The notes below the pieces were generated by a model that was not told the origin of the DNA, ran no database searches, and saw only the letters and a list, made by a program, of their open reading frames with translations. A stretch of 35,291 nucleotides of DNA. Source: a virus. The stretch covers positions 1-35,291 of IMG/VR virus record IMGVR_UViG_3300027865_000023. The stretch is one strand, 5' to 3'. The position numbers and the translations under genes are program-made. Shown here in pieces: positions 13,074 through 35,291 of this stretch (positions are counted from its first letter, which is position 1; the number at the start of each line of letters is the position of its first letter).

Positions 13074-13240
13074 TTAATCTCCCGTTCCTTAGCCAAATAA
13101 CCCGCTAAAAATATTTCCTCATAATGCCCGTCATGCAATTTATATACTGAGTGTTTACCAAATACAAACCAGTTCTTTTTCTTATATACCCGGAAAGCCT
13201 TCTGGCAGCCCTTGGGCATCCTGTCGAAATATAGTCCCAT
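13052..13240 (-). CDS. Hypothetical protein (62 aa)
   Basis: This basic protein of 62 residues is rich in aromatic residues (NWFVFGKHSVYKLHDGHYEEIFLAGYLA) with two cysteines. The family is unknown. Its start (TAATG) overlaps the exonuclease stop, and its end overlaps the TSCPD gene start by 22 nt, so it is translated as part of that chain if at all. Confidence 0.5.
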   Translation of the reverse strand: MGLYFDRMPKGCQKAFRVYKKKNWFVFGKHSVYKLHDGHYEEIFLAGYLAKEREIKCQKVSQ

Positions 13241-14757
13241 TATTTGACTTCCGTATGAGTACCATCTTTATATGCTCTCCTTTCATCACACCATGAACCA
13301 CAATCTTTACACTGATACCTTTGATACTTACGAACCCTTGTGTAAGCAAACCCGTTTTTTCTCAGGTTAGGACTACCACATACAGGGTTTGGGCAACACA
13401 GCCCATCCCTAAATAGCCCTGCATTAAGAGGATTGTTCTTAACATAGGGCATCAGTTTCTCGAACACAAAATACAGAGCGTCTATATCTCCCCTGTTATA
13501 AACAGCCATCCTCTTGAGTGCCTTTTCGTCTCCTTCCCAACACTTGAGCCATAAATCAGAGGGGTTTGTTATCTTCCCTTTATGCCCTAAATACTTAGCT
13601 ATGAAATTAAGTTTGTTAGAGGCAAAATTAAAATGCTTACTCGCAATCTTCTTTGTGTCTAAGCTGATGATTTTAGGCAGTGGTGGCAAGTCGTGTGCAA
13701 TCATTCTTGAGGTAAGGACTGGTAAATCAAATTTAGAATTGTGAGAGGGGAAACCCTCCATTATATATGTTTGGGTTGATGTGCTTAATTCCACAATGTC
13801 TTGCATACCTAAAATCTGTACCTTCTTAATTGTTTCCCACTTCTTTGTTTGCATAGCCCCAATATCAGCGATATCAAGTTTGGGCATTAACCTCTCGGGT
13901 CTTATTGTCCCCAAAAATCTCAACTCTTCATCTTTCCCCCCTCTTAAATAAATTCTATGCACACTTTTGTCTGTCATCTTACTGGGATTAAATCCCCTGA
14001 GTTTAAGTTGTTGTAATGTCATTTTTAGTGCCTCGTTATTTTTCTGTGCCATACCAACCCGGATGGTTTTACCATGTAATGTGTTTTTTATACTCAAATG
14101 CCCTTCACCATCAAAAAAAACAGCTAAATAACCAGCGCCAAAAGAACTGTCTGTACTCCACACATCAAGAACCCTCGATACTTTATCACCCGCTTGCAAT
14201 TCCCCTGCCTGTTTCCACTTCAAATTATTATGAACCTTTTTATTGGATGACATAAGCAGCGGATGCCCAGCCGAACATGTTATAACCCTATCGTGAAAAA
14301 ATATTCTTACTACTGGTTGTTTGGATTCACCTACATGGGTAACAATACTGTTTTCATATTTCCTGCGATACCCTGAACCAACAACATTGGCGTTAAAACC
14401 AGCCAATTTATCACCCACCTTTAGCGAACCTGCGTTAACCCACCTTAAGCCACTTGTTAATATCTTCTGGTCTGGGGTCGGACAACCATAGTGAGCCACA
14501 TGAGCGTCAGCCCCGCTTAAAATCTTGTGCATTTCTTTCACCACATGGTAATCATCATGGTTGTTTCTTTTAAACCTCTTATAGTCATCTAAGATACTTG
14601 TTGTGTGTGTTTTGCTCTCACCATACCAACGATATGAAGCACAATAAATATGTCTATGTGTTATTACATTTTCAGCAGGTATGTTCTGCTTATACAAACC
14701 AAACGATAAAACCAAGTTATGACTTGTCTCCAAGTCCCATAATAATATTTTTGGCAA
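13240..14757 (-). CDS. DEDDy exonuclease (RNase H-like, YprB type) interrupted by an intein
   Basis: The start is a TTG at 14757 behind a perfect AAGGAG. A longer GTG frame from 14814 would overlap the upstream gene and lacks that site. The primary product has 505 residues. The spliced exonuclease (about 256 aa) has Exo I in LLWDLETS, Exo II rebuilt across the splice junction (VAHYG joined to SKFDLPVL), and Exo III YNRGD. This makes a 3'-5' exonuclease of the DnaQ/YprB RNase H-like family, likely in phage DNA repair or replication. A C-terminal zinc ribbon follows (C-x4-C ... YQCKDCGSWC), resembling ribbons of transposases. An intein lies at residues 92-340. The exonuclease should be inactive until splicing. 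Confidence 0.88.
   Translation of the reverse strand: MPKILLWDLETSHNLVLSFGLYKQNIPAENVITHRHIYCASYRWYGESKTHTTSILDDYKRFKRNNHDDYHVVKEMHKILSGADAHVAHYGCPTPDQKILTSGLRWVNAGSLKVGDKLAGFNANVVGSGYRRKYENSIVTHVGESKQPVVRIFFHDRVITCSAGHPLLMSSNKKVHNNLKWKQAGELQAGDKVSRVLDVWSTDSSFGAGYLAVFFDGEGHLSIKNTLHGKTIRVGMAQKNNEALKMTLQQLKLRGFNPSKMTDKSVHRIYLRGGKDEELRFLGTIRPERLMPKLDIADIGAMQTKKWETIKKVQILGMQDIVELSTSTQTYIMEGFPSHNSKFDLPVLTSRMIAHDLPPLPKIISLDTKKIASKHFNFASNKLNFIAKYLGHKGKITNPSDLWLKCWEGDEKALKRMAVYNRGDIDALYFVFEKLMPYVKNNPLNAGLFRDGLCCPNPVCGSPNLRKNGFAYTRVRKYQRYQCKDCGSWCDERRAYKDGTHTEVK
13738..14484 (-). other. Intein with a LAGLIDADG-type homing endonuclease domain (249 aa)
   Basis: This in-frame insertion begins with Cys and ends with His-Asn, followed by Ser as the +1 extein residue. 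That is the chemistry of a class 1 intein. Block A is CPTPDQKILTSGLRWVNAG with LKVGDKL. Block B is RVITCSAGHPLLM. Blocks F and G are IVELSTSTQTYIMEGFPSHN. A LAGLIDADG-like motif, YLAVFFDGEGHLSI, lies in the middle, and a second, weaker one may be present. The remaining exonuclease joins cleanly when the insertion is removed. The size fits a bifunctional intein of near-minimal length. Confidence 0.9.
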
Positions 14758-14767
14758 TATGTTCTCC

Positions 14768-15061
14768 TTATCCAGCCCCTTTTTTTTCCTTCTGTTTTTG
14801 TTTCCACAGTTCACGCTTCTGTTTATTCAAAATCTTTGCCAGCTCTGGTCTTGCCCACGTGATTGCTCGATTCTCTATATCTATAACCTGTTCCACAGGA
14901 CACATCCTCACAATAGGTTTCTCGCCAGTCCTGACCGCCATAAGGTGAGAATCTTTAGGTTCTATTTTTATCCTGTGATGCTTTCTATATTCAGCTATTT
15001 CTTCTTTCGTGCCGTATTTATAATCTCCGCAAAGTTTGCAGTAAAAACTGTAATGACTCAT
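14768..15061 (-). CDS. Hypothetical protein with an N-terminal Cys pair (97 aa)
   Basis: This 97-residue protein begins with FYCKLCGDYKYGTKEE, a C-x2-C knuckle, then HH at 28-29 that could complete a zinc site (C2H2-like). The last 30 residues form a very basic helix (ILNKQKRELWKQKQKEKK). The family is unknown, and nucleic-acid binding is plausible from the charge. The ATG at 15061 has AAGG upstream. Its 3' end supplies the AAGGAG site of the exonuclease gene. Confidence 0.55.
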   Translation of the reverse strand: MSHYSFYCKLCGDYKYGTKEEIAEYRKHHRIKIEPKDSHLMAVRTGEKPIVRMCPVEQVIDIENRAITWARPELAKILNKQKRELWKQKQKEKKGAG

Positions 15062-16883: not shown

Positions 16884-17816
16884 CTATAGAAATTCCTCAC
16901 AGTCCTGTGTATTCCTAATGTAATCCAACTCCTGATTGTTCTCTGTGAACACACAATCTGCACATTTTGTGCCATCAAGGGGCGCTATCTCTCCACTGTA
17001 TATCTTGCGGGCATCTGACCAGTGATACCACCTATATTTGGGATTAAACTGTCTGTCAGCATCATCATTAAGCACAGTGGAAGAACACGGATAAACATAG
17101 CCATCAGCATTTAAAAATGGTTTGATATACCCTACTAAGCAATTTTTATAGACAGCCTTGGTTTTTCTTTGGTAGAATAATGGAGCTCCTATATAACTGA
17201 CAATTTCCGCTATCTTCCTGTGTTTACTTTCAATTTCCCCAATACAATTAGGGACAACCCTCACATATTTAACATTGTGTTTTATAGCAAGGTCTCTTAC
17301 TTCCCATAGAGTCCGGATTGTGCTGTCTCCGTCATAATCAAAACAGTATGAAAAACCAAGATGCGCATCCTTGTGGAGTTTAGGGATAAAAATCTCTTTC
17401 CCATAATCAAGGCTATTGGCTGATATGCGTAACCATGAAAGTGTTTCTGGATTTTTCAGCTTTTCGAGTAACGTCCCGTTGGTAATTAAACCTATCTGGA
17501 GACGAAGAATATATGCGTAATAAACAATTTCATTTATATACGGATGAAGCATAGGTTCTCCACCACCCGTTATTTCTACAGTCTTAGTGCCTAAATCCCT
17601 AAATAGTTTCAAGGCATGTAAAATGTCATCTGCTGGGAGTTCTTCCTTGCTATCTCTTTGGGCAACAGAACAGAAAGCACATTTGAGATTACATTTGTTA
17701 GTTACCGCCAACTGTAAACTGTGCGGTCTGGCTTTGCCACTATGTAATAGCCTGATTAAATCTGGATGCCTTAAAATCTTTTTACCAGTAGACGTATAAG
17801 TGTGAACCTTACTCAT
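16884..17816 (-). CDS. Radical SAM protein with a C-terminal SPASM-like Cys cluster
   Basis: This protein has 310 residues. The radical SAM C-x3-C-x2-C motif is CNLKCAFC (Cys42, Cys46, Cys49). It is followed by TVEITGGGEPMLHP, the SAM-binding GGE motif, and LQIGLITNGTLL. The C-terminal part has CLVGYIKPFLNADGYVYPCSS and CADCVF plus a late Cys (DCEEFL), the layout of a SPASM or twitch domain binding an auxiliary cluster. The reaction is unknown. SPASM enzymes modify peptides, sugars or cofactors. It is not the short QueE type of 7-deazaguanine pathways. The start at 17816 follows AAGGGG. No obvious peptide substrate lies next to it, though small genes at 17.8-18.2 kb could be checked. Confidence 0.88.
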   Translation of the reverse strand: MSKVHTYTSTGKKILRHPDLIRLLHSGKARPHSLQLAVTNKCNLKCAFCSVAQRDSKEELPADDILHALKLFRDLGTKTVEITGGGEPMLHPYINEIVYYAYILRLQIGLITNGTLLEKLKNPETLSWLRISANSLDYGKEIFIPKLHKDAHLGFSYCFDYDGDSTIRTLWEVRDLAIKHNVKYVRVVPNCIGEIESKHRKIAEIVSYIGAPLFYQRKTKAVYKNCLVGYIKPFLNADGYVYPCSSTVLNDDADRQFNPKYRWYHWSDARKIYSGEIAPLDGTKCADCVFTENNQELDYIRNTQDCEEFL

Positions 17817-17834
17817 TTGTCCCCTTTGAGCCCT

Positions 17835-17966
17835 TTATTGGAAAATTTTCCACAATACAACAAATACCCATGTAATAGGATTTATTAGGAGAAAACCAAT
17901 TGCTATCCCAGCTACCAATAGTGAAAATAAGAACATCACAACAAATACTTCAAACAAGTCCTTCAT
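17835..17966 (-). CDS. Small membrane protein (43 aa)
   Basis: An ATG at 17966 with ATAGGGG upstream opens 43 codons, nearly all hydrophobic. Two segments (VFVVMFLFSLLVAGIAIGF and ITWVFVVLWKIF) are joined by an INP turn, giving one long or two short transmembrane helices. It overlaps the preceding gene by 17 nt. A perfect 14-bp palindrome, TGGAAAATTTTCCA, spans its last codons (17839-17852). The function is unknown. Confidence 0.55.
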   Translation of the reverse strand: MKDLFEVFVVMFLFSLLVAGIAIGFLLINPITWVFVVLWKIFQ

Positions 17967-18153
17967 TTTTTCCCCTATCCAATGCGACTAAATGCTTCAC
18001 ATAGCTATCAATAAAAGACCGCCTTTCCACTGTGAAGTTCCTCAGTATGATGAAAATATTCTCCCCTAATGTTTTTTCATCTGAGACGCCAGCTTCAATC
18101 CAACATAGGAAGTCTCCACAAATTTCGCATCTGCCTTTATCAATGTTTGTCAA
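17950..18153 (-). CDS. Hypothetical protein with Cys knuckle (67 aa)
   Basis: This 67-residue protein starts at a TTG (18153) with CAGG six bases upstream. It begins with CEICGDFLC (C9, C12, C17), a small metal-binding pattern, followed by a soluble helical part (FIDSYVKHLVALDRG). The family is unknown. It directly follows the broken sulfotransferase copy, whose end it overlaps by 14 nt. Confidence 0.45.
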   Translation of the reverse strand: MTNIDKGRCEICGDFLCWIEAGVSDEKTLGENIFIILRNFTVERRSFIDSYVKHLVALDRGKNEGLV

Positions 18154-18357
18154 TTTTTACCTGCCCTAAACGGATATTGTCACCTAAATTTCTAAAAGCT
18201 TCATGGGCATACGGGTATCTCATAGCAAACTCCGCCTGCTCTGCTTCTGTTGATATATTTTTAATCCTGCTTTCATCAAAAACGTGACGTGCTTCTTCGT
18301 TCCATATCAAACCTAACCTTGCTACCACTTCTTTTATCCTGTAAGGTTCTTTATATG
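18140..18357 (-). pseudogene. C-terminal remnant of a second sulfotransferase gene
   Basis: The frame encodes SYKEPYRIKEVVARLGLIW ... FDESRIKNISTEAEQAEFA, which matches the C-terminal 70 or so residues of the intact sulfotransferase at 19095-19868 (there SYKEPYRIKEVVAKLGLTW ... FDESRIKNISTEAEKEEFA). No start or catalytic P-loop part is present. The frame opens just after a TAG, and the only possible start is a GTG at 18328. The matching DNA begins inside the last codons of the ParB-like gene, which reads it in another frame. This is best seen as the leftover of a duplicated or recombined gene. Translation from the GTG as a short protein of 62 aa cannot be excluded. Confidence 0.75.
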
Positions 18358-18358
18358 A
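18167..18358. repeat. Diverged direct repeat, copy B (partner at 19117-19295)
   Basis: This segment aligns with 19117-19295 in the same orientation. A 37-bp block at its right end (18322-18358 against 19259-19295) differs by one base. The rest is clearly similar but diverged (I judge around three quarters identical by eye). The sharp end of similarity at 18358 marks a recombination junction, and the ParB-like coding frame crosses that junction. Confidence 0.8.
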
Positions 18359-19095
18359 TCCTCCGTTCTAAATGGATACTGTTTATCTTGTGGACAGGTA
18401 AGCGCTATAGCTTCTGACACCACATAGACGGGGATAAGCTTTTTCTTCATTGCCTCATATGCCATATACCTTTTATATCCGTCCCGCCTTTGGAAGAAAA
18501 TATCGCTATCCTTTTTTGTCACCAGTATCGGCTCTATCTGGTATCCCTGTTCTATTTTACTTTTCATCCACTCAACACCCGCCTGATGCTCTTTATAGTC
18601 GGCTTCTAAATGTTCTTGTGAATACCCCTCTAAACCCAACCAGCCCTCTTTTGTGGGGAAGTGGATATGGTCGTAAGGATTAACACTTGCCAGTGGGAGC
18701 ATTGTCTCTCTAAGTTTAACAGACAATGAGTCTTTAAACATACAAGCCATTTTAATAAATTCTGACATCTTTAACTCTAAACGTATATCCCCATAATGAA
18801 AATGGATACTACCATTCTCCTGCTCTTCTATTTTCCACTGTTGCTTGAAGATTGTATCTTCGGTAATTTTAGTAAGACACAAAACTGTATCTTCCTCTGC
18901 CAATCTTCCACTCCATCCAGTCCCCGCCTTGACCACAGCTCCCCCAAAATTCACAAACTGTTTCGGGGTCATTAAGATTCTACAGTCTCTCCAATGTAGG
19001 TGGATAGCTTCAGAAACCTCTATCCTTAAATCATCACGGAAATGAGGTTGCTCTTTGGTATTAACTGATGCGAGTATTTCTTTAACGTCTCCCAC
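18334..19095 (-). CDS. ParB/Srx-like domain protein
   Basis: This protein has 253 residues from a GTG at 19095 with GGAGAGGAGG just upstream. The GTG shares its first base with the sulfotransferase stop. The C-terminal part carries a ParB-like pattern: YQIEPILVTKKDSDIFFQRRDGYKRYMAYEAMKKKLIPVYVV, with DGYKRYMAY standing for the family's DGxxRxxA box. The N-terminal 150 residues have repeated beta-type elements (IEVSEAIHLHWRDCRILMTPKQF and a similar GSIHFHYGDIRLELKMSEF, seen as two related halves) of unknown family. ParB-like domains can act as CTP- or ATP-using switches or kinase-like enzymes. Its last nine residues are encoded by duplicated sulfotransferase DNA read out of frame. Confidence 0.7.
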   Translation of the reverse strand: MGDVKEILASVNTKEQPHFRDDLRIEVSEAIHLHWRDCRILMTPKQFVNFGGAVVKAGTGWSGRLAEEDTVLCLTKITEDTIFKQQWKIEEQENGSIHFHYGDIRLELKMSEFIKMACMFKDSLSVKLRETMLPLASVNPYDHIHFPTKEGWLGLEGYSQEHLEADYKEHQAGVEWMKSKIEQGYQIEPILVTKKDSDIFFQRRDGYKRYMAYEAMKKKLIPVYVVSEAIALTCPQDKQYPFRTEDHIKNLTG

Positions 19096-19868
19096 TATAC
19101 CTCCTCTCCGCACAAAGCCCTTAAGTTTCCAAAAGTGGAGTGGGCTTCGGGATATGTTGTGGCAAATTCTTCCTTCTCCGCTTCTGTCGATATATTTTTT
19201 ATCCTACTTTCGTCAAAAATCCGTTCCGCTTCCCCAGTCCATGTCAAGCCCAACTTAGCTACCACTTCCTTTATCCTGTAAGGTTCTTTATATGAATCGG
19301 GAAACATAATCACCTGTGCTCCCCTTTCACTTAATAGATATTTAGTTGTATGAAAACTTTCTTTGTAATATTTTAATATTCTTTCTATATTCCAAGTAGG
19401 GTCATTAGAAGTGCTTTTCATAATATCAATCGGATGTCTTAACGAAGTAATAATTTTTACATCTGGAAAATTTTCCAGCAAGAGCAGTCCTAAATATTTC
19501 CAGACAGAATCATGTACCAAATGAACATTTTTGAAACCAAAGAAATGCCACCCATGTTTTGTAGCTTCTTCATTGTAAGATTTTAAAAATCTATCAAAAT
19601 TTTCAACATGATTCTTTCTGTATTGTGAATGATGATAATCTTTATTATAATATGGGTTTCCAAATTCTTGCGCTAAGTGCATTTCATTTGTAATTGTGCA
19701 TAAACCCCAATTTTCCCTAATCTCTCCAGCGGGGCAAGTGTAACCACAAGAGTTATTCCCCAACTCCATACCACAAGCATGTAAAATTCTCAAGAGAAGC
19801 CTTGAGCCTGTATGCCAGTGACTTAGAATCGCTATAGGTGTTTGTTTTGGCAGGGATAAATTATCCAT
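19095..19868 (-). CDS. Sulfotransferase-like protein
   Basis: This 257-residue protein resembles PAPS-dependent sulfotransferases. The 5'-phosphosulfate loop candidate is SHWHTGSRLLLRIL (16-29), where the usual GTxRSGTT-like loop is changed but keeps the Gly-Ser pair. The 3'-phosphate site candidate is IITSLRHPIDIMKS, the typical 'xRxPxd' segment. Later, VIMFPDSYKEPYRIKEVVAKLGL and a terminal FDESRIKN match the usual C-terminal region. It would move sulfate from PAPS to a sugar or other hydroxyl. Its 14 neighbours include fucose and glycosyl transfer genes, so a glycan acceptor is likely. The ATG at 19868 overlaps the methyltransferase end by 8 nt. Confidence 0.78.
   Translation of the reverse strand: MDNLSLPKQTPIAILSHWHTGSRLLLRILHACGMELGNNSCGYTCPAGEIRENWGLCTITNEMHLAQEFGNPYYNKDYHHSQYRKNHVENFDRFLKSYNEEATKHGWHFFGFKNVHLVHDSVWKYLGLLLLENFPDVKIITSLRHPIDIMKSTSNDPTWNIERILKYYKESFHTTKYLLSERGAQVIMFPDSYKEPYRIKEVVAKLGLTWTGEAERIFDESRIKNISTEAEKEEFATTYPEAHSTFGNLRALCGEEV
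19117..19295. repeat. Diverged direct repeat, copy A (within the intact sulfotransferase)
   Basis: This is the intact partner of the segment at 18167-18358. It covers the codons for the C-terminal third of the sulfotransferase. The 37-bp block 19259-19295 is the best-conserved part. Confidence 0.8.
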
Positions 19869-20454
19869 CTACAATCTCCTTTTGAGCAATTATTAAAAAA
19901 CCATTGCTACGTTCCCATTGCGATTTATCAGCAACTTCAATTCTGAAATCCGACCTTTCCTCTAAAGCGTCTCTTACTTGAAGCAAAGTAAATCCAGTAG
20001 TTTTCATTCCATTTGCTTTATAATTCCCACTATCATAATCCAAGTATGGTGTGTTAAAAATAATCAACCCCTCAGAATTAAGGTGATTGCAGAGGAAACC
20101 AACAAAACCATCCAGCTCTTCATATAAAACATGATGTAAAACATACCAAAAATGGATTATGTCGTATTTCTCAGGGAAAATATCAGAGTAACTATTAATT
20201 AAATGTCTATTTTTTATTTTTTTATGCACCAACGCATTTAGGGCTCTTGCTGATATATCGGCAAGGGCATACTCCTTCACAATATCTATAACCGCCCTCA
20301 TTTGTCTTCCTTCTCCAGCGCCAATTTCTAAAACTTTTTTATCCCTAAAGATTTCAATATGCTTTTCAAAGGGGACTTTTACACTGTCTCCTTGTTTATA
20401 TTCTATATATCTCGTATCCCAATAACTGCTTCTCTCGTTTAAATCTTTTAACAT
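19861..20454 (-). CDS. Class I SAM-dependent methyltransferase
   Basis: This protein has 197 residues. Motif I is VLEIGAGEG (41-49), the acidic residue after strand 2 is in YALADIS, motif IV is [13 protein letters not shown], and [17 protein letters not shown] follows. This is a compact Methyltransf_11/25-like enzyme, without a target-recognition domain or DNA-MTase motif. It sits between GDP-fucose synthase and the sulfotransferase with short overlaps to both, which suggests methylation of the same sugar or glycan. The substrate is not proven. The start ATG at 20454 uses AGGGAG inside the fucose-synthase end. Confidence 0.8.
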
Positions 20455-21404
20455 TTTTGCTCCCTTCGCATACTTTTATACCACCTGACTGTTTTTTCTA
20501 ATCCTTCCCTAAGCTCTGTTTTTGCATTAAAACCAAACTCTTCCTGAGCTCTTGAAACATCAAGACATCTTCGTGGCTGACCGTCAGGCTTTGACAAATC
20601 CCATGTTACATCCCCATAAAATCCTGTAAGTTTAGCAATAAATCCCGCAAGGTCTTTTATAGACACCTCAAATCCAGACCCTATATTGACTGGCTCACCT
20701 TTATTGTATTTTTCAGTTGCAAGCACTATCCCTTCAGCAGCATCTTCTACATACAAAAATTCCCTTGTTGGTTTCCCTGTCCCCCAAATAGTTACTTTTG
20801 GATGAAACGGGTTCTCTTGAATGGCATTAATAAACTTTTTAATTAAAGCTGGGATTACATGGGAAGTGTCAGGGTCGAAATTATCTCCTATGCCATATAA
20901 ATTAACAGGCAAAAGATATATCGAGTTAAAATTGTGTTGCTTTCTATATGCCTGAGACTGAACAAGAAGCATTTTCTTTGCAAGCCCGTATGGAGCATTT
21001 GTTTCTTCTGGATAGCCATCCCATATATCCTTCTCTTTAAAGGGTATCGGGCAAAACTTAGGGTATGCGCATATCGTCCCGATAGCAACAAACTTTTCTA
21101 CGCCAAAATGATAGGCTAAATCCATTGTCTGTATCCCCATAACAAGGTTATCGTAGAAGAAACTGGCAGGGTATTCGCTGTTAGCTTTTATTCCACCGAC
21201 AACCGCCGCAAGATGAATAACAATATCGGGCAGAAATTCATAAAACATTTGCCCACATTCTTCTTTGTCGGTGAGGTCATACTTCTCACTGCTCGGGGCT
21301 ACGATGTTTTTACATCCACGCTCTTTGAGCTTTTTAACCACATAAGAACCCAAAAAACCGTTTCCGCCAGTTACTAAAACTGTTTTATTGTCCCAAAATT
21401 CCAT
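20448..21404 (-). CDS. fcl: GDP-L-fucose synthase
   Basis: This 318-residue protein belongs to the short-chain dehydrogenase superfamily and is close to bacterial Fcl/WcaG. NADPH is bound by TGGNGFLGS. The catalytic Ser is in [15 protein letters not shown]-type segments and the Tyr-x3-Lys pair is in APYGLAKKM. The family segment [23 protein letters not shown] (quoted in parts) and [13 protein letters not shown] are strongly diagnostic. It converts GDP-4-keto-6-deoxymannose to GDP-L-fucose by epimerisation and reduction. It directly follows the dehydratase gene (1-bp gap), giving the full two-step route from GDP-mannose. Length is normal and catalytic residues appear intact. Confidence 0.93.
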
Positions 21405-21405
21405 A

Positions 21406-22461
21406 TTACACCTTAAGTTTGTCGCAGTCGCTTTCGACCATTATCTCGCATAAGGCACGAAAAGTTACCTTCGGAGACCAATTAAGCCCTATCCTTGCTT
21501 TTGTAATATCAGCCTGAAGAACATCAACCTCAATAGGTCTAAAATATCTTGGGTCTATTTCTATAATAGTGTCCCCCTCTTTTACTGGACACTTATCCCG
21601 AGATACAAATTCAATAACTCCTTTTTCTTTTAAACCACTATTCCGCCACTCTATGCCGATACCGACATAATGAAACGCATATTCTACAAATTCCCTCACA
21701 GAATGGCTTTGTCCTGTGCCAATCACATAATCTTCAGGTTTATCCTGCTGTAACATCGTCCACATACATTCCACATACTCGGGGGCATATCCCCAATCTC
21801 TTTTAGCGTCCAGATTCCCGAGGAAAAGCCTTTGCTCTTTACCTGCAAGAATATTTGCCAGAGCCCGTGTAATCTTTCTTGTCACAAAGGTTTCCCCTCT
21901 CCTTGGAGATTCGTGGTTAAAAAGAATACCGTTACAGGCAAACATGTTATACCCATTCCGATAATTGACAGTCGTCCAGAAAGCATATGTCTTAGCAACA
22001 GCATAGGGGCTTCGGGGTGAAAAGGGCGTATCTTCGCTCTGCGGTGGTTGGGCAGAACCGAACATCTCTGACGAAGATGCCTGATAAAATTTTGTTTTTA
22101 TCCCACTTCTCCTGATGGCTTCAAGAAGCCTTGTTGTGCCAAGCGCTGTTATATCGCCAGTATATTCTGGAATATCGAAGCTAACCCTTACATGGCTCTG
22201 AGCACCAAGATGATAAACTTCGTCTGGTTCAATGTTGTAAATTATGTTGGTTAACTGTCCTGCGTCGGCAAGGTCTCCATAATGAAGAAATAATTTTGCA
22301 TCAGGGGCATGAGAGTCTACATATATATGGTTAATCCTACTGGTATTAAAAGTGCTCGCCCTTCTTATAAGACCATGAACAGCATAGCCCTTGGACAGAA
22401 GCAGTTCTGCTAAATAAGAACCGTCCTGTCCAGTAATACCAGTTATAAGTGCTTTTTTCAT
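21406..22461 (-). CDS. gmd: GDP-mannose 4,6-dehydratase
   Basis: This protein has 351 residues from the ATG at 22461 (MKKALITG). A longer in-frame start inside the previous gene is less likely. The NAD(P) motif is [15 protein letters not shown], followed by [11 protein letters not shown]. The catalytic region is [10 protein letters not shown] with Tyr-x3-Lys in [10 protein letters not shown], then [16 protein letters not shown], all hallmarks of Gmd. It makes GDP-4-keto-6-deoxymannose, the substrate of the next gene product. Length and motifs are complete, so activity is expected. It follows the glycosyltransferase-like gene with 1-bp spacing and weak Shine-Dalgarno sequence, suggesting coupled translation. 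Confidence 0.95.
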
Positions 22462-22462
22462 C

Positions 22463-23698
22463 TTATCTATTGTCCCGTACCTTATCAAGAATATGATTTA
22501 TTAAAAAAACAGACAATTTATGCTGGTTGCCCTTTATCCATTTTCCATAAAGCTCAAAGCAGTTAGAGGATATATATTCATATTGCTCTTTTGTTATGTT
22601 AGTGGCATCTTTTAAATCAGAGAAATCTTCACTAAATGTAAGATAGTGTTCCCCATCTTTCATTTCAGGGAAGAACGACTGGTCGTTAATCCTTCTTGGG
22701 TAAAGGTTTATTGTCTTCATAGCGGCAGCTTCCCAGAAACGGGGCGGTGCAAGAATAGAGAAAGCCCATTTATAGTCACAATAAAATAAATATTGTTTGA
22801 GTATATTGTAGAGATTCGCATCAGCAAGTGGGCTTGAATTTAGAGCCCCCTCAAGTAAGCCTAAATTGATATCCCCATGATGTTTTTTAAAAATCTCTGC
22901 TGCTTCGTAGAAAAACGGGACACACTGGTTATTCCAGTGAGCCTTACCAGTTGTCTGTCCATTGAAATAGTCATCTGGTATAGGACTTGGTATTCTACAA
23001 GATGTTTTGCTCCCCCTATAGTGAGCAAGAGACATACCCCCATGTTCTTTCCATATCTTTCTACAGTCATCACAATACTGATGGACATAGTGCGTGGTAA
23101 AAAAACAGGAAAATTCATCAACCAAATGATGCTTTAAAAAATGCAGATACATTATAAATCTCTGATAGTGATGCCCGCCACGCACAAGGCATAGCTTCTT
23201 TCTACCTTCCCATGTTAAAGAGGGCACTATGTCGGGGTCTCGCCACATTACGTAGGGCAAAGAATGTAATCGCCCACTATTTTTAATAGTAGAATATGTC
23301 TGCCAGTGTTCATCTGAACAGAAAGGTCGTAGTCTCTTGGTAATGTGCATATTATTATCAATATACATTTCGTCAGAACTTTGAACCTCTTGGATGCCTG
23401 CCACTTTAAAGATTAAATCTATATCTAATATTTCCTTGGACTGTCCATACATGCTGTCAAAAGATGAATGGTCGTTAATATCAAAAGAGCATATAGTGTT
23501 ACCATTGTTTTTAAGCTGTGATATTGTCACTGGAGTCAAGCGTATGCCATCAACCAAAACAATGGAATTCTTAACAGCCCGCAAGTCCGCAGCAATTTCA
23601 ATCGGCGTTGTAGTCCCTTGCGAGTAATTAAGCAATGACATAAAATAAACCTGTTCCAGATAAATATTGACTGGCTTGAACATTACTATTTTTTTCAT
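22463..23698 (-). CDS. Glycosyltransferase-like protein, GT-B type (CgeB/Glyco_trans_1-like)
   Basis: This protein has 411 residues. The C-terminal part has [17 protein letters not shown], then [19 protein letters not shown], the pattern of nucleotide-sugar-binding domains in CgeB-like and spore-coat glycosyltransferases (E of RFWEAAA, then EHYLTFSED). The N-terminal half is poorly conserved, with a CDDC motif ([11 protein letters not shown]) that is unusual. The donor could well be GDP-fucose from the two following genes, since the three genes overlap or nearly abut. The family call is moderate and donor and acceptor are inferred from context only. Confidence 0.65.
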
Positions 23699-24228
23699 TT
23701 CACCGCCTCGATATTTAAGCTCATTAATATACCTTCGTCTTTATCCATATGGGGCAAATATGCCTGTGAATAATCATCATATTTAGAGTGCTCGGTTTTT
23801 CTCCAGTCCCATTCCCTGATGGTCTGGAAACCTACAACCTTTAAGCACTTAATCAGATACTCCCTGTCAAAAATAATATGGTGTGTATCAATCTGTATTT
23901 TTTGTCCGCCATACATTAAACCAAGGACTTGCTCTAATTCTCCAGTGCTCTGATAGTATCGGCAGATAGCTTTAAAATCGGGGACAGCCAACCTTAAGAT
24001 TCCATTATGGATAAGCAGGTCTCTCCAGTGGGTAAGGACAGCGTATGTCATGTTTCTGTTGAAATGCTCGAGCACATGGCTTGCGTAGATTAATCTGAAC
24101 GATGCTCTTGGATATGGAATAGTCATGGCACTACTGTATAAATCCACTTTGTTATCTGAGAAAATATCCAGATTAATCCAGTCGGGCAAATAGTTCTTCC
24201 CTGCTCCGATATGAAGCTTATCTATCAT
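23695..24228 (-). CDS. Class I methyltransferase-like protein (177 aa)
   Basis: The protein begins KLHIGAGKNYLPDWINLDIFSDN, the classic start of small methyltransferases encoded in glycan clusters (G-x-G loop at 6-10 and acidic strand-2 end at Asp21). FRLIYASHVLEHF is motif IV and NGILRLAVPDFKAIC follows. It has 177 residues, so it lacks an N-terminal substrate domain. Some such proteins are predicted to bind SAM without a known acceptor. ATGA overlaps occur at both ends. The call is strong for the fold and weak for the substrate. Confidence 0.78.
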   Translation of the reverse strand: MIDKLHIGAGKNYLPDWINLDIFSDNKVDLYSSAMTIPYPRASFRLIYASHVLEHFNRNMTYAVLTHWRDLLIHNGILRLAVPDFKAICRYYQSTGELEQVLGLMYGGQKIQIDTHHIIFDREYLIKCLKVVGFQTIREWDWRKTEHSKYDDYSQAYLPHMDKDEGILMSLNIEAVK

Positions 24229-24467
24229 TTAGCTTTTTTCTTTTTCTTAGCTATGGTTTTTCTTTTGACGGGGGCTGGACACAATACTTTGTCAAATGCC
24301 TCTTTCATACAGAAATGACAGGCGGTATAAACCCCCCTTATATTCCATAAGGCTACTGTTGCCCCGCAGTAATCACATTTACAGCCCTCTGGTGCACCCG
24401 CAGTCCACTTCGAGGGATGATTCAACAGCCACTTAATATTTGACCACCAACGCTTTAAGGTCTCCAT
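24225..24467 (-). CDS. Small zinc-ribbon protein (80 aa)
   Basis: This protein has 80 residues. An N-terminal Trp-rich segment (RWWSNIKWLLNHPSKW) is followed by CKCDYCGATVALW and, 15 residues on, CHFC. This gives the CxC-x2-C ... C-x2-C pattern of a zinc ribbon. The tail is very Lys-rich. The function is unknown, and it may bind nucleic acid. The ATG at 24467 follows AGGAGA. It overlaps the methyltransferase-like gene by ATGA. Confidence 0.55.
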   Translation of the reverse strand: METLKRWWSNIKWLLNHPSKWTAGAPEGCKCDYCGATVALWNIRGVYTACHFCMKEAFDKVLCPAPVKRKTIAKKKKKAK

Positions 24468-24477
24468 TTTATTTCTC

Positions 24478-24723
24478 CTATGGTATAGATTGTTTGCTAT
24501 TGATAGCTTTTAATAAACATTTAATACTGCAAAAATCTGTTATATCATTCTGCCATCCGACTGAGTGCATGTAACTTTCAGCCATTCCCTTTTTCTTGAA
24601 ACGTGGCTCATTAAGCCATACCCGTAATTGTCCACTTAATTGCAACCAATTTTCTTTTCTTTGTTGTCTTTCTTTTATTGCTTGTTTTTTACAAATATTA
24701 CATAAAGTTATTTCTTTTTTCAT
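24478..24723 (-). CDS. Small Cys-rich protein (81 aa)
   Basis: This protein has 81 residues from an ATG at 24723 that overlaps the glycosyltransferase stop (ATGA). The CNICKK pair near the N-terminus and the FCSIKC pair near residue 66 flank a basic helical middle. Four cysteines in two C-x2/3-C pairs suggest a split zinc site, like treble-clef or HNH-type structural sites, but without nuclease residues I can identify. The function is unknown. Confidence 0.5.
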   Translation of the reverse strand: MKKEITLCNICKKQAIKERQQRKENWLQLSGQLRVWLNEPRFKKKGMAESYMHSVGWQNDITDFCSIKCLLKAINSKQSIP

Positions 24724-25508
24724 TCGCTTTCCACCTTCCAATATTTTAAATACTCTTCACTCTCTTCTGATGCTTTCATACTCTTTTTCTTTTTATACCA
24801 CTCCTGCCAATGCGGGGATGACATGGCATGTCCGACTTTAGCCTCGTTAATATATGTATCCTTAAACTGTTGGTCTACTTGCCAAAGCTCTTCACACATA
24901 CCCGCAATGGATTTTAATCTTGCTTCGGTCTTAAGAAAACCAAAATGCCTGATGACTGGACTGCCCATATGAAGAAGCGGATTCTGGAAACCGCTTGGTC
25001 TCTCATGCACCATGCGCTCAAACCCCACATTCGGCAAGTTCCTAAAAAACCTCGGTTGCCAGTCGGGATGACTTCCAAGATTAGCTATCTGCTCTTCAGC
25101 GGACGGTTTAGTGAGTAACCCCCCGTCACGGGTCTCGACTATAGACATATCAAATGCTCTATAATGCTGTCTCGGAAGCCAGATTAAATCATGGTTTGAT
25201 TCACACATCATCCCAAATTTCTTGACATCCGCTGGCAGTATCCGCTCGTCACCGTCAAGAATCAAAACCCATTTGCTTCTGGCTAAATGAGCTGTCAGGG
25301 TACGCATTCCACCATATCCGCCTACAAACATGGGATGTGTTATCTGATAAACCCTTGCCCCCAAAGACCTGCAAATTTCTATAGTACTATCCGTGCTCCC
25401 ACTATCAACAACTACCCACTCGTTAATAACGCTTTTAACACAGTTGTAAACTGCTTCTGCGTTTTTTTCTTCGTCTTTAAAATTACAGCATAGTGTTATG
25501 GTTGACAT
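24720..25508 (-). CDS. Family 2 glycosyltransferase (GT-A)
   Basis: This protein has 262 residues. It is a GT-A enzyme: N-terminal LCCNFKDEEKNAEAVYNC, then EWVVVDSGSTDSTIEICRSLGARVY, and the metal-binding LILDGDERI (DGDE as the DxD motif), all as in the WaaE/KdtX-type branch of GT2. The late RFFRNLPNVGFERMVHERP is also typical of that branch. It would add a sugar to a glycan chain. It heads the glycan part of the island (in transcription order), ahead of the methyltransferases and fucose genes. The start is the ATG at 25508, next to the preceding stop. Confidence 0.87.
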   Translation of the reverse strand: MSTITLCCNFKDEEKNAEAVYNCVKSVINEWVVVDSGSTDSTIEICRSLGARVYQITHPMFVGGYGGMRTLTAHLARSKWVLILDGDERILPADVKKFGMMCESNHDLIWLPRQHYRAFDMSIVETRDGGLLTKPSAEEQIANLGSHPDWQPRFFRNLPNVGFERMVHERPSGFQNPLLHMGSPVIRHFGFLKTEARLKSIAGMCEELWQVDQQFKDTYINEAKVGHAMSSPHWQEWYKKKKSMKASEESEEYLKYWKVESE

Positions 25509-33746: not shown

Positions 33747-33899
33747 TTATCCGTTCCATTCAAGTGTGAGTTTTACTTTCTTTTTCGGTGATGGAGATAT
33801 AAGATTTTCTTTTTCAAGCGCCCTTTCAATAAGCAAACACCCCTCGCAAATTTCGGGCGTTAAATGAAAATCTTTAATCACAATTTTTATTTTTGCCAT
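33747..33899 (-). CDS. Small protein with CEGC motif (50 aa)
   Basis: An ATG at 33899 opens 50 codons (MAKIKIVIKDFHLTPEICEGC...). It has one C-x2-C pair (C18, C21) and a basic end. It is the first gene after the repeated leftward promoter: the -10 box is 86 bp upstream, giving a leader of about 78 nt. The ribosome site is weak. No family is known. Confidence 0.55.
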   Translation of the reverse strand: MAKIKIVIKDFHLTPEICEGCLLIERALEKENLISPSPKKKVKLTLEWNG

Positions 33900-33974
33900 T
33901 TAATAGTCTTTTATATATCCCAATGAGCTTTTGCTTTTATTAATTTCCCGTTTTGACGCTCTTTAAGCTTTCTA

Positions 33975-34019
33975 AGCTGAAATTACTATAAATCATTATA
34001 ATAACAATGTCAAGCAAAA
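33975..34019 (-). repeat. 45-bp perfect direct repeat, copy 1 (promoter cassette)
   Basis: This 45-bp block is identical base for base to 34960-35004, about 985 bp away. The right half of the plus strand reads ...ACAATGTCAAGCAAAA. The block contains a complete leftward promoter and ends near its expected start point. Copy 1 overlaps the last bases of the HTH gene (stop at 34010) and drives the gene at 33899 and those beyond. Confidence 0.95.
33985..34013 (-). promoter_or_regulatory. Sigma-70-type leftward promoter (copy 1)
   Basis: Read leftward: -35 TTGACA (34008-34013), 17-bp spacer, -10 TATAGT (33985-33990), so 6/6 and 5/6 matches to consensus with ideal spacing. TTTTGC precedes the -35 box and TTGT follows it. 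The start point should lie near 33977-33979. It serves the small-gene operon from 33899 leftward. Confidence 0.85.
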
Positions 34020-34162
34020 TGTTCCATAATATCGCTTAAGAAAAACCTTCTTGGTCGGCAGAACGCTTTCATAGCTCCTGCGTGTTTATTGACCCACCAC
34101 TTTGAATAACCCCTATCAAGGAAATATTTATCTGTAACAATTTTTTCCTCGTCAAATATCAT
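34010..34162 (-). CDS. AlpA/excisionase-like helix-turn-helix protein (50 aa)
   Basis: This protein has 50 residues from an ATG at 34162 that overlaps the preceding stop (ATGA). The segment IVTDKYFLDRGYSKWWVNKH ... CRPRRFFLSDIMEHF follows the pattern of MerR-like HTH_17/excisionase domains, where R-x-R-F-F-L-S-D-I matches the common 'rrwrf.reDie.w' wing and helix. Proteins of this type act as excisionase or transcription factor. No integrase is in the window. The upstream start (34195) is possible but less likely. Confidence 0.6.
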   Translation of the reverse strand: MIFDEEKIVTDKYFLDRGYSKWWVNKHAGAMKAFCRPRRFFLSDIMEHFA

Positions 34163-34260
34163 AAAAACAGTATCCCTAATATAATTATTGCCCAAAGAAC
34201 AAACCCTACTATTAAACCGTAAACCATCCCCCGAGCAGGAGCTAATTTATCTTCCTTCAT
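34159..34260 (-). CDS. Very small membrane protein (33 aa)
   Basis: An ATG at 34260 opens 33 codons: a short polar start (MKEDKLAPARG) and a single hydrophobic helix (VYGLIVGFVLWAIIILGILFL). It overlaps the CII-like gene by 14 nt and the HTH gene by ATGA. It resembles small phage membrane peptides in shape only. Confidence 0.5.
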   Translation of the reverse strand: MKEDKLAPARGMVYGLIVGFVLWAIIILGILFL

Positions 34261-34651
34261 CCTGTCCCCCATTACCAAGTAACAGCTTTATGGTTTCCCT
34301 AAGTATCTCGATACGCTTTTCCTTTTCCTGAGTCCCGAAACCCAACAAAATCCGCATGGATTCTATAAGCGTGTTTAAATCTGGTTCAAGTCTTAGCTCC
34401 TTCAAGTTCAGCGATAGCCTGAAAGCACCCTTGAGAATCTCGACAACCCTGACCGTCTCACCAGTTGGATAGATTTGACAGCCCGAGTAAGCAAGCATCA
34501 TATGTATCTCTTTTTCAGCCCACCCCGTGTGACCATTTATCCGCTTAGATAACTCCGATGCGTTTAACCCTAAAACGGACGCCAGCACCTCCTGACTGCC
34601 TGCTTTATAAATTGCCCTTTGGACTAATTCAAATAAATTCATACCCTTCAT
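34247..34651 (-). CDS. CII-like transcriptional regulator
   Basis: This protein has 134 residues from an ATG at 34651 with AAGGGGG in front (an ATG three codons on is also possible). The N-terminal 60 residues hold an HTH: FELVQRAIYKAG SQEVLASVLGLNASELSKRINGHTGWAEKEIHMMLAY, similar in layout to phage CII proteins (HTH of 'tEktAeavGvdkSqiSRw' style). A leucine-rich helical C-terminal part (LKELRLEPDLNTLIESMRILLGF) may tetramerise it. It is the first gene after the control region and promoters whose -35 boxes are flanked in a CII-site-like way. An alternative reading is a general phage repressor or activator HTH. Confidence 0.55.
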   Translation of the reverse strand: MKGMNLFELVQRAIYKAGSQEVLASVLGLNASELSKRINGHTGWAEKEIHMMLAYSGCQIYPTGETVRVVEILKGAFRLSLNLKELRLEPDLNTLIESMRILLGFGTQEKEKRIEILRETIKLLLGNGGQDEGR

Positions 34652-34871
34652 GCCCTACCCCCTTGTTTGTTTTATTTGCCTCCAGCCAGTAAAAGAAATT
34701 TACAGAAATTTAATTTTCTTCCACTTTCTCCCTAAAAATGGTAAAAAAATATACATACCCCCGCTACATCCCCCACTGATGATTGGGGCGATAAAGGGTT
34801 TTAGGGAACATAACGAGGGTAAGACAAAAATTCGGTTCAGACTTATAGTTTTAGTATATTTCATTTTGCTA
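34652..34871. other. Leader between the control promoters and the CII-like gene
   Basis: These 220 bp lie between the nearest promoter and the first start codon. Read leftward they contain a small hairpin, CCCCA-loop-TGGGG, around 34775-34795 and a T-rich stretch some 20 nt later (34742-34752), spaced too far apart to be a clear terminator. A 54-codon frame (34700-34864) lacks a ribosome site. It may be an attenuator or simply a long leader. Confidence 0.3.
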
Positions 34872-34878
34872 TAATTTT

Positions 34879-34907
34879 ATGTTAACACACCTAAATATCA
34901 ATGTCAA
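34879..34907 (-). promoter_or_regulatory. Leftward promoter (related third copy)
   Basis: Read leftward: -35 TTGACA (34902-34907), 17-bp spacer, -10 TAACAT (34879-34884; 4/6). The block TTTTTGCTTGACATTG around the -35 box is identical to that of the 45-bp repeat at 34960-35004, but spacer and -10 differ. It is the promoter closest to the CII-like gene. Confidence 0.65.
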
Positions 34908-34959
34908 GCAAAAAGTGAATCCTGTAAATATTAAAACGATTACCTTTAAAAAACTATGT

Positions 34960-35004
34960 AGCTGAAATTACTATAAATCATTATAATAACAATGTCAAGC
35001 AAAA
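34960..35004 (-). repeat. 45-bp perfect direct repeat, copy 2 (promoter cassette)
   Basis: This block is identical to 33975-34019. It lies upstream of the CII-like regulator and contains a full leftward promoter. Confidence 0.95.
34970..34998 (-). promoter_or_regulatory. Sigma-70-type leftward promoter (copy 2)
   Basis: Read leftward: -35 TTGACA (34993-34998), 17-bp spacer, -10 TATAGT (34970-34975). Together with the promoter at 34879-34907 it would drive the regulator gene and the early operon. Flanking TTGC before and TTGT after the -35 box are the same as in copy 1. Confidence 0.85.
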
Positions 35005-35083
35005 AGTTATTAAAACTGTATAAAGCCGAATGACATGTTAGGCATTTCTGTATATATCTTTTCAAAAGACTAATATGGTATAA

Positions 35084-35107
35084 ATCATATGATAAAAATC
35101 ATATGAT
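35084..35107. repeat. Tandem 10-bp palindromes, possible operator
   Basis: ATCATATGAT is a perfect palindrome present twice (35084-35093 and 35098-35107) with a period of 14 bp. It lies between the leftward promoter (copy 2) and the rightward promoter, the usual place for regulator binding in a phage switch. The repressor is not identified. Confidence 0.5.
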
Positions 35108-35225
35108 AAAAATAATCGAAGGGATAAAATGAGAATATGCAGGCTATAGATATTAATAAAATCATGGGGGAAAACCCTGACCAACACTTAATAATCACCC
35201 GCCTTTTTTTTCACCCACCTTTTGC

Positions 35226-35254
35226 TTGACTATGTTATTGAATAGTGCTATCTT
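35226..35254 (+). promoter_or_regulatory. Rightward sigma-70-type promoter
   Basis: TTGACT at 35226-35231, 17-bp spacer, TATCTT at 35249-35254 with TG one base before the -10 box (extended -10). The sequence TTTTGC just before the -35 box matches the leftward promoters, in opposite orientation. It points off the right edge, so divergent genes, perhaps a repressor or integrase, are expected there. Confidence 0.6.
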
Positions 35255-35291
35255 TTATTAATAGCTAAACACCTATAGGCTTATATGCTAT

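Follow-up and report, generated by a model that had tools for sequence, protein, structure and literature searches.

The control region at the right end of this virus record contains a 45 bp block which carries a complete sigma70-type promoter and is present in two exact direct copies (P1 and P2), 985 bp apart. Judging from its sequence and setting, the block is probably a real, functional early promoter that was recently duplicated. The explanation which best accounts for the whole of the observations, and which we consider reasonably probable, is that of a duplicated early promoter with a core common to four sites and read by one regulator. The block would be a sigma70-type early phage promoter present twice: P2, with a related promoter (P3) 91 bp downstream, would start a leftward three-gene regulatory module encoding a Cro-type HTH protein, a small membrane-type protein, and an Xis-like HTH protein, while P1, presumably a recent copy of P2 placed at the end of the module on the Xis-like stop codon, would restart transcription of the small-gene/replication operon and match P2 in strength and timing. 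The core at P1 to P3 and at a divergent promoter (P4) most likely also binds one phage regulator, which is predicted to switch the module together with the replication genes and the divergent unit. The preliminary description of this DNA had suggested either recent duplication or common control; both are favored here, but control by the CII-like protein that it named is not.

The window analyzed is the whole virus record of 35,291 bases, which is classed as a virus record, linear or fragment, so that its right end, where the repeat is situated, is probably cut. No exact direct repeat in the window is longer than the 45 bp block, the runner-up measuring 26 bp, and gapless extension gives 48 identical positions out of 49 (33975-34023 and 34960-35008). 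The identity over 45 bp is far outside chance expectation, with the longest exact repeat in each of 40 order-2 Markov simulations measuring 14-18 bp. The two identical blocks had been reported at these same positions and the exact match was confirmed at both; a search of the rest of the record, in line with the check that had been proposed, returned no further copy with up to three mismatches. No homology was detected between the 200 bp flanks of P1 and P2 (262/300 and 113/300 shuffles scored equally high). That the assembly itself produced the repeat is conceivable for a metagenomic-type virus sequence, but the two direct copies have four unique flanks with genes intact across both, and a misassembly at a direct repeat of this short length should as a rule delete or chain the unit, without making unique flanks; we therefore regard the chance of such an artefact as negligible.

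Both copies read, on the minus strand, TTTTGC TTGACA, a 17 bp spacer, TATAGT, and AATTTCAGCT (Table 1). The preliminary description had the hexamers and the spacing right: each block scores 11/12 as a sigma70-type TTGACA-17-TATAGT promoter, and P1 and P2 have the top two scores of this type in the window. It had treated P3 as a third copy sharing the -35 block only, which does not hold, as P3 is a complete promoter (hexamer score 10/12) whose own -10 is preceded by TG. The rightward site P4 does share TTTTGCTTGAC, as had been noted, but the likeness is not limited to those bases, since 18/20 bases of the core described below match at 35220. No unusual structure was found in the leader RNA expected from P2 or P1 (z of -0.67 and 0.34, respectively), and there were no Rfam matches across the window.

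Table 1. Promoters, genes, and candidate operators of the control region, with positions in the window.
Feature	Position	Strand	Details
P1, block copy 1	33975..34019	-	-35 TTGACA 34013-34008; -10 TATAGT 33990-33985; expected start ~33978
P2, block copy 2	34960..35004	-	-35 34998-34993; -10 34975-34970; expected start ~34963
P3, related complete promoter	34879..34913	-	TTGACA-17-TAACAT with TG; 19/20 core bases
P4, divergent promoter	35220..35254	+	TTGACT-17-TATCTT with TG; 18/20 core bases; gene off contig
134-aa HTH protein	34247..34651	-	Cro-type (DUF739-like, below cut-off); previously named CII-like
Small ORF	34159..34278	-	Hydrophobic/membrane-type by eye; overlaps its neighbors; no NCBIfam match
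Small HTH ORF	34010..34195	-	Xis/MerR-like by eye; stop inside the P1 -35
50-aa gene	33747..33899	-	First of the small-gene operon after P1
14 bp tandem repeat	35073..35113	.	Palindromes ATCATATGAT; candidate operators

The sizeable genes that could be assigned by visual inspection of the listed ORFs are all on the minus strand. The expected starts of P2 and P3 lie ~310 and ~220 bases ahead of the 134-aa HTH gene; one block thus precedes this gene as previously stated, ~310 bp upstream of its ATG, but P3 intervenes and is the nearest promoter of the gene. The membrane-type ORF and then the Xis-like HTH ORF follow in overlapping order, and the latter had no match in Pfam, PHROGs, or NCBIfam. 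The other block had been placed inside the end of an HTH gene ahead of the small-gene operon, which is correct, although only the final 10 bases of the Xis-like gene (34010-34019) overlap P1, with the TGA stop inside the -35 hexamer. The expected start of P1 is ~79 bases ahead of the next gene, which heads a small-gene and replication operon including an exonuclease (PHROG 298) and genes which on visual inspection look to be of SSB and DnaB type.

A 20 bp core, which runs from TTTTGC into mid-spacer and therefore lies over the -35, has 0, 0, 1, and 2 mismatches at P1 to P4, where P1 and P2 served for its derivation and P3 and P4 as the test. Matches with fewer than four mismatches are confined to these four promoter sites, all inside 34000-35239, and the next-best position in the window has four. 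The best core match in each of 30 order-3 Markov simulations had 4-6 mismatches, with none under four. Retention of the core in two sites which are otherwise diverged suggests a shared binding site; should the core prove to be an operator, the logic of regulation in this phage could be read from four sites. The core is asymmetric, without a clear dyad by eye, which is atypical of the site of an HTH dimer. The ATCATATGAT array between P2 and P4 has a more typical operator shape; its likeness to the cassette was equaled by 10/500 shuffles in one of six comparisons, uncorrected, and we make no claim of such a likeness. A core 19-mer occurs at three loci in the viral contigs, which we take as chance: in one the site adjoins a long ORF (L094), in another it is within a long ORF (L095), and the third (L096) has shorter ORFs whose residues are those of the second.

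We also considered whether the core is simply the promoter style of the host. It should be noted that the host was guessed from one mobile sugar gene (GMD), the best matches of which were Nitrospirae at 75%, with a Scalindua fragment (76%) and Anammoxibacter (73%) as competitors, so that the comparison genomes may be the wrong ones. In 10 genomes picked in this way there is an enrichment of GCTTGACA-17-TATAAT (up to one mismatch), with 68 occurrences against 13 for the reversed pattern, and a C before TTGACA is common. Ahead of a perfect TTGACA-17-TATAAT, TTTTGC was found at none of 38 sites in six of the 10 candidate host-type genomes, a set restricted to sites whose sixth base ahead of the -35 is A or T; by eye, TTGC directly precedes the -35 in one of these and GC in four. 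This appears to indicate that the core is more than generic promoter context in those genomes, a comparison which, with the host uncertain, is supportive only.

The shared core could arise by common descent alone, without a regulator. According to this account local recombination or template switching produced a second copy of a strong promoter, the identity of P1 and P2 reflects youth, the core reflects older rounds of copying, and no shared regulator exists. We consider this possible, if doubtful. The identity includes the end of the spacer and the bases after the -10, i.e., positions of no known function, for which recent copying of P2 to P1 would account, P1 and P2 lie between unrelated flanks, and the window has a second local duplication, a diverged 3' gene copy with 26 exact bases 937 bp apart. 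P2 and P3 share 18 exact bases (at 34990 and 34899) and P1 differs within this stretch, which makes P2 the likely parent of P1; in the simplest order P3 and P2 would have come first and P2 would then have been copied to P1. What neutral decay does not lead one to expect is that P3 and P4, diverged elsewhere, still match the core at 19 and 18 of its 20 positions. The repeat itself, hexamers and spacing of promoter grade, the core at four sites, and the layout of the operons are visible in the sequence; that each of the four sites starts transcripts, that P2 was copied to P1, and that a regulator of either sign acts on them is what we infer. The fullest form of the idea, a phage switch of a new type, seems to us unlikely: one regulator would read the asymmetric 20 bp site (TTTTGCTTGACWWTGWTATT), built on the -35, at each of the four control-region promoters and compete there with RNA polymerase at both divergent units and at the internal replication promoter, the regulated module being bracketed by the copied promoter and losable in one recombination step.

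The direct repeats bracket the regulatory module exactly and the Xis-like HTH gene ends in one of them, an arrangement which might be expected if the 985 bp unit (P3 plus the three regulatory genes) came in, or is lost, between the repeats, recombination between P1 and P2 deleting the unit and leaving one promoter before the replication operon. We nevertheless hold this to be highly improbable: no recombinase was seen beside the unit, no record free of the module was found, and deletion is possible between any direct repeats. Local copying of a promoter is a simple route by which phage operons can be rewired, and an identical promoter pair in two contexts should help to identify the regulator in a lineage without close relatives in the collections searched.

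The naming of the 134-aa HTH protein as CII-like invites a comparison with lambda pRE, where that protein, or another, would bind TTGC-N6-TTGY around the -35 and activate all of the sites. A CII site is given as TTGCN6TTGC/T in an excerpt of PMC2629481, the pRE record of HK542 reads TTGC-GAGTAC-TTGT with the middle six bases as the -35 and a 17 bp spacer, and P1 and P2 contain TTGC-TTGACA-TTGT; as far as this excerpt describes the site, its geometry is formally present. P1 and P2 match all of the motif, and P3 and P4 match seven of its eight letters. But the -35 is already consensus in P1 to P3 (TTGACA, 6/6), and the protein is not CII by the comparisons given below. Lambda promoters activated by CII have a poor -35 which needs the activator. 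The pRE of HK542 opposes cII, whereas three of the sites here point along the direction of the HTH gene. The motif occurs in the window three times against 3.4 expected, and the same flanks were found at promoters of at least 20 viral contigs, as was a scrambled control (also at least 20). Among the loci listed, 5/20 motif sites and 3/21 control sites were in long ORFs; none of the 20 motif loci had a second similar site, compared with 2/20 for the control. Motif and control behave alike and the test thus does not discriminate. Given the perfect -35, the ordinary motif frequency, the non-discriminating flanks, and a protein other than CII, we do not call these CII promoters and consider activation of this type improbable.

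The protein itself argues against the CII-like label and with it against control by CII. It had no match to Pfam Phage_CII (PF05269), where lambda CII itself scores 1.1e-48, and no BLASTP similarity to lambda CII, and hhalign against a seven-member CII profile gave a probability of 5.2%. Its best family was DUF739 (PF05339; E 4e-4, 20.9 bits against a cut-off of 27), and within the aligned part it is 30% identical to a Cro-like DUF739 protein from Streptococcus phage 115. By these profile and alignment comparisons it is nearer to Cro-type DUF739 proteins than to CII. The predicted structure had a mean pLDDT of 41.9 and was set aside.

Relatives of the region were sought in several collections. 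None of the viral contigs contained a 32-mer taken from the block, searched as an exact match; the HTH protein, exonuclease, and terminase identified no relatives in viral contigs, nor did the terminase in genome contigs, and a blastn query with 33900-35291 matched none of 50,697 phage records. The DnaB search produced three distant loci (39, 32, and 32% identity), in which no shared promoter was seen when strong sigma70 sites were screened and TTTTGCTTGAC was absent. A description of the block was not found in the literature searched, which is no proof of its absence in print. The closest known kind is that of the Streptomyces phage phiC31, the early region of which has near-identical short elements, mostly intergenic, comprising eight good copies of an CCGGGTTGCCGACTCCCTTAC-like element, besides a poor ninth match, and another eight elements with CCTACTCACGTGAGTAGG-like cores. 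These repeated elements are promoter-like and palindromic, and act as lytic promoters and repressor operators. Here P1 and P2 are identical over 45 bp, P3 and P4 have the core in common with them, and P1 and P2 stand before different groups of genes; the phiC31 copies are more numerous, extend over ~15 kb, and have a phage-specific sequence, in contrast to two exact and two partial copies in 1.3 kb with sigma70 hexamers. The present case is a new example of an already known phenomenon, repeated early promoters, and is fairly ordinary phage gene control.

Two other systems were rejected as models. The stoperators of Cluster A mycobacteriophages, as portrayed in the available portion of PMC6550527, are likewise short asymmetric sites in one orientation with at least one at an early lytic promoter; according to the same portion there are 20 to 30 operators or stoperators genome-wide, most of them away from promoters, while here only four core sites are present, all at promoters within 34000-35239. 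Putative mobile promoters (Matus-Garcia 2012, as cited in a passage of PMC8049555) resemble the block in that a short promoter is copied without its gene. Mobile promoters are characterized by copies in many loci or genomes, unlike this single local copy in one phage, with two copies in its own record, the 32-mer of the block in none of the viral contigs, and the core 19-mer in only the three loci taken as chance.

Some further features of the record were observed. Behind the gene at 18334-19113 comes a diverged second copy of the sulfotransferase-like gene's 3' end, with an exact 26 bp shared between 18160-18360 and 19120-19300 on the minus strand. An exonuclease-like protein (RNase_H_2; 13240-14814, minus strand) is apparently split by an intein, as suggested by a weak match to an intein-bearing profile (residues 105-359) together with, as judged by eye, a Cys opening the insert and an HN/S junction closing it. 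Finally, 16884-25508 (minus strand) appears by eye to be a sugar/small-molecule cluster with GDP-mannose dehydratase, fucose-synthetase-like, glycosyltransferase, methyltransferase, and radical SAM genes.
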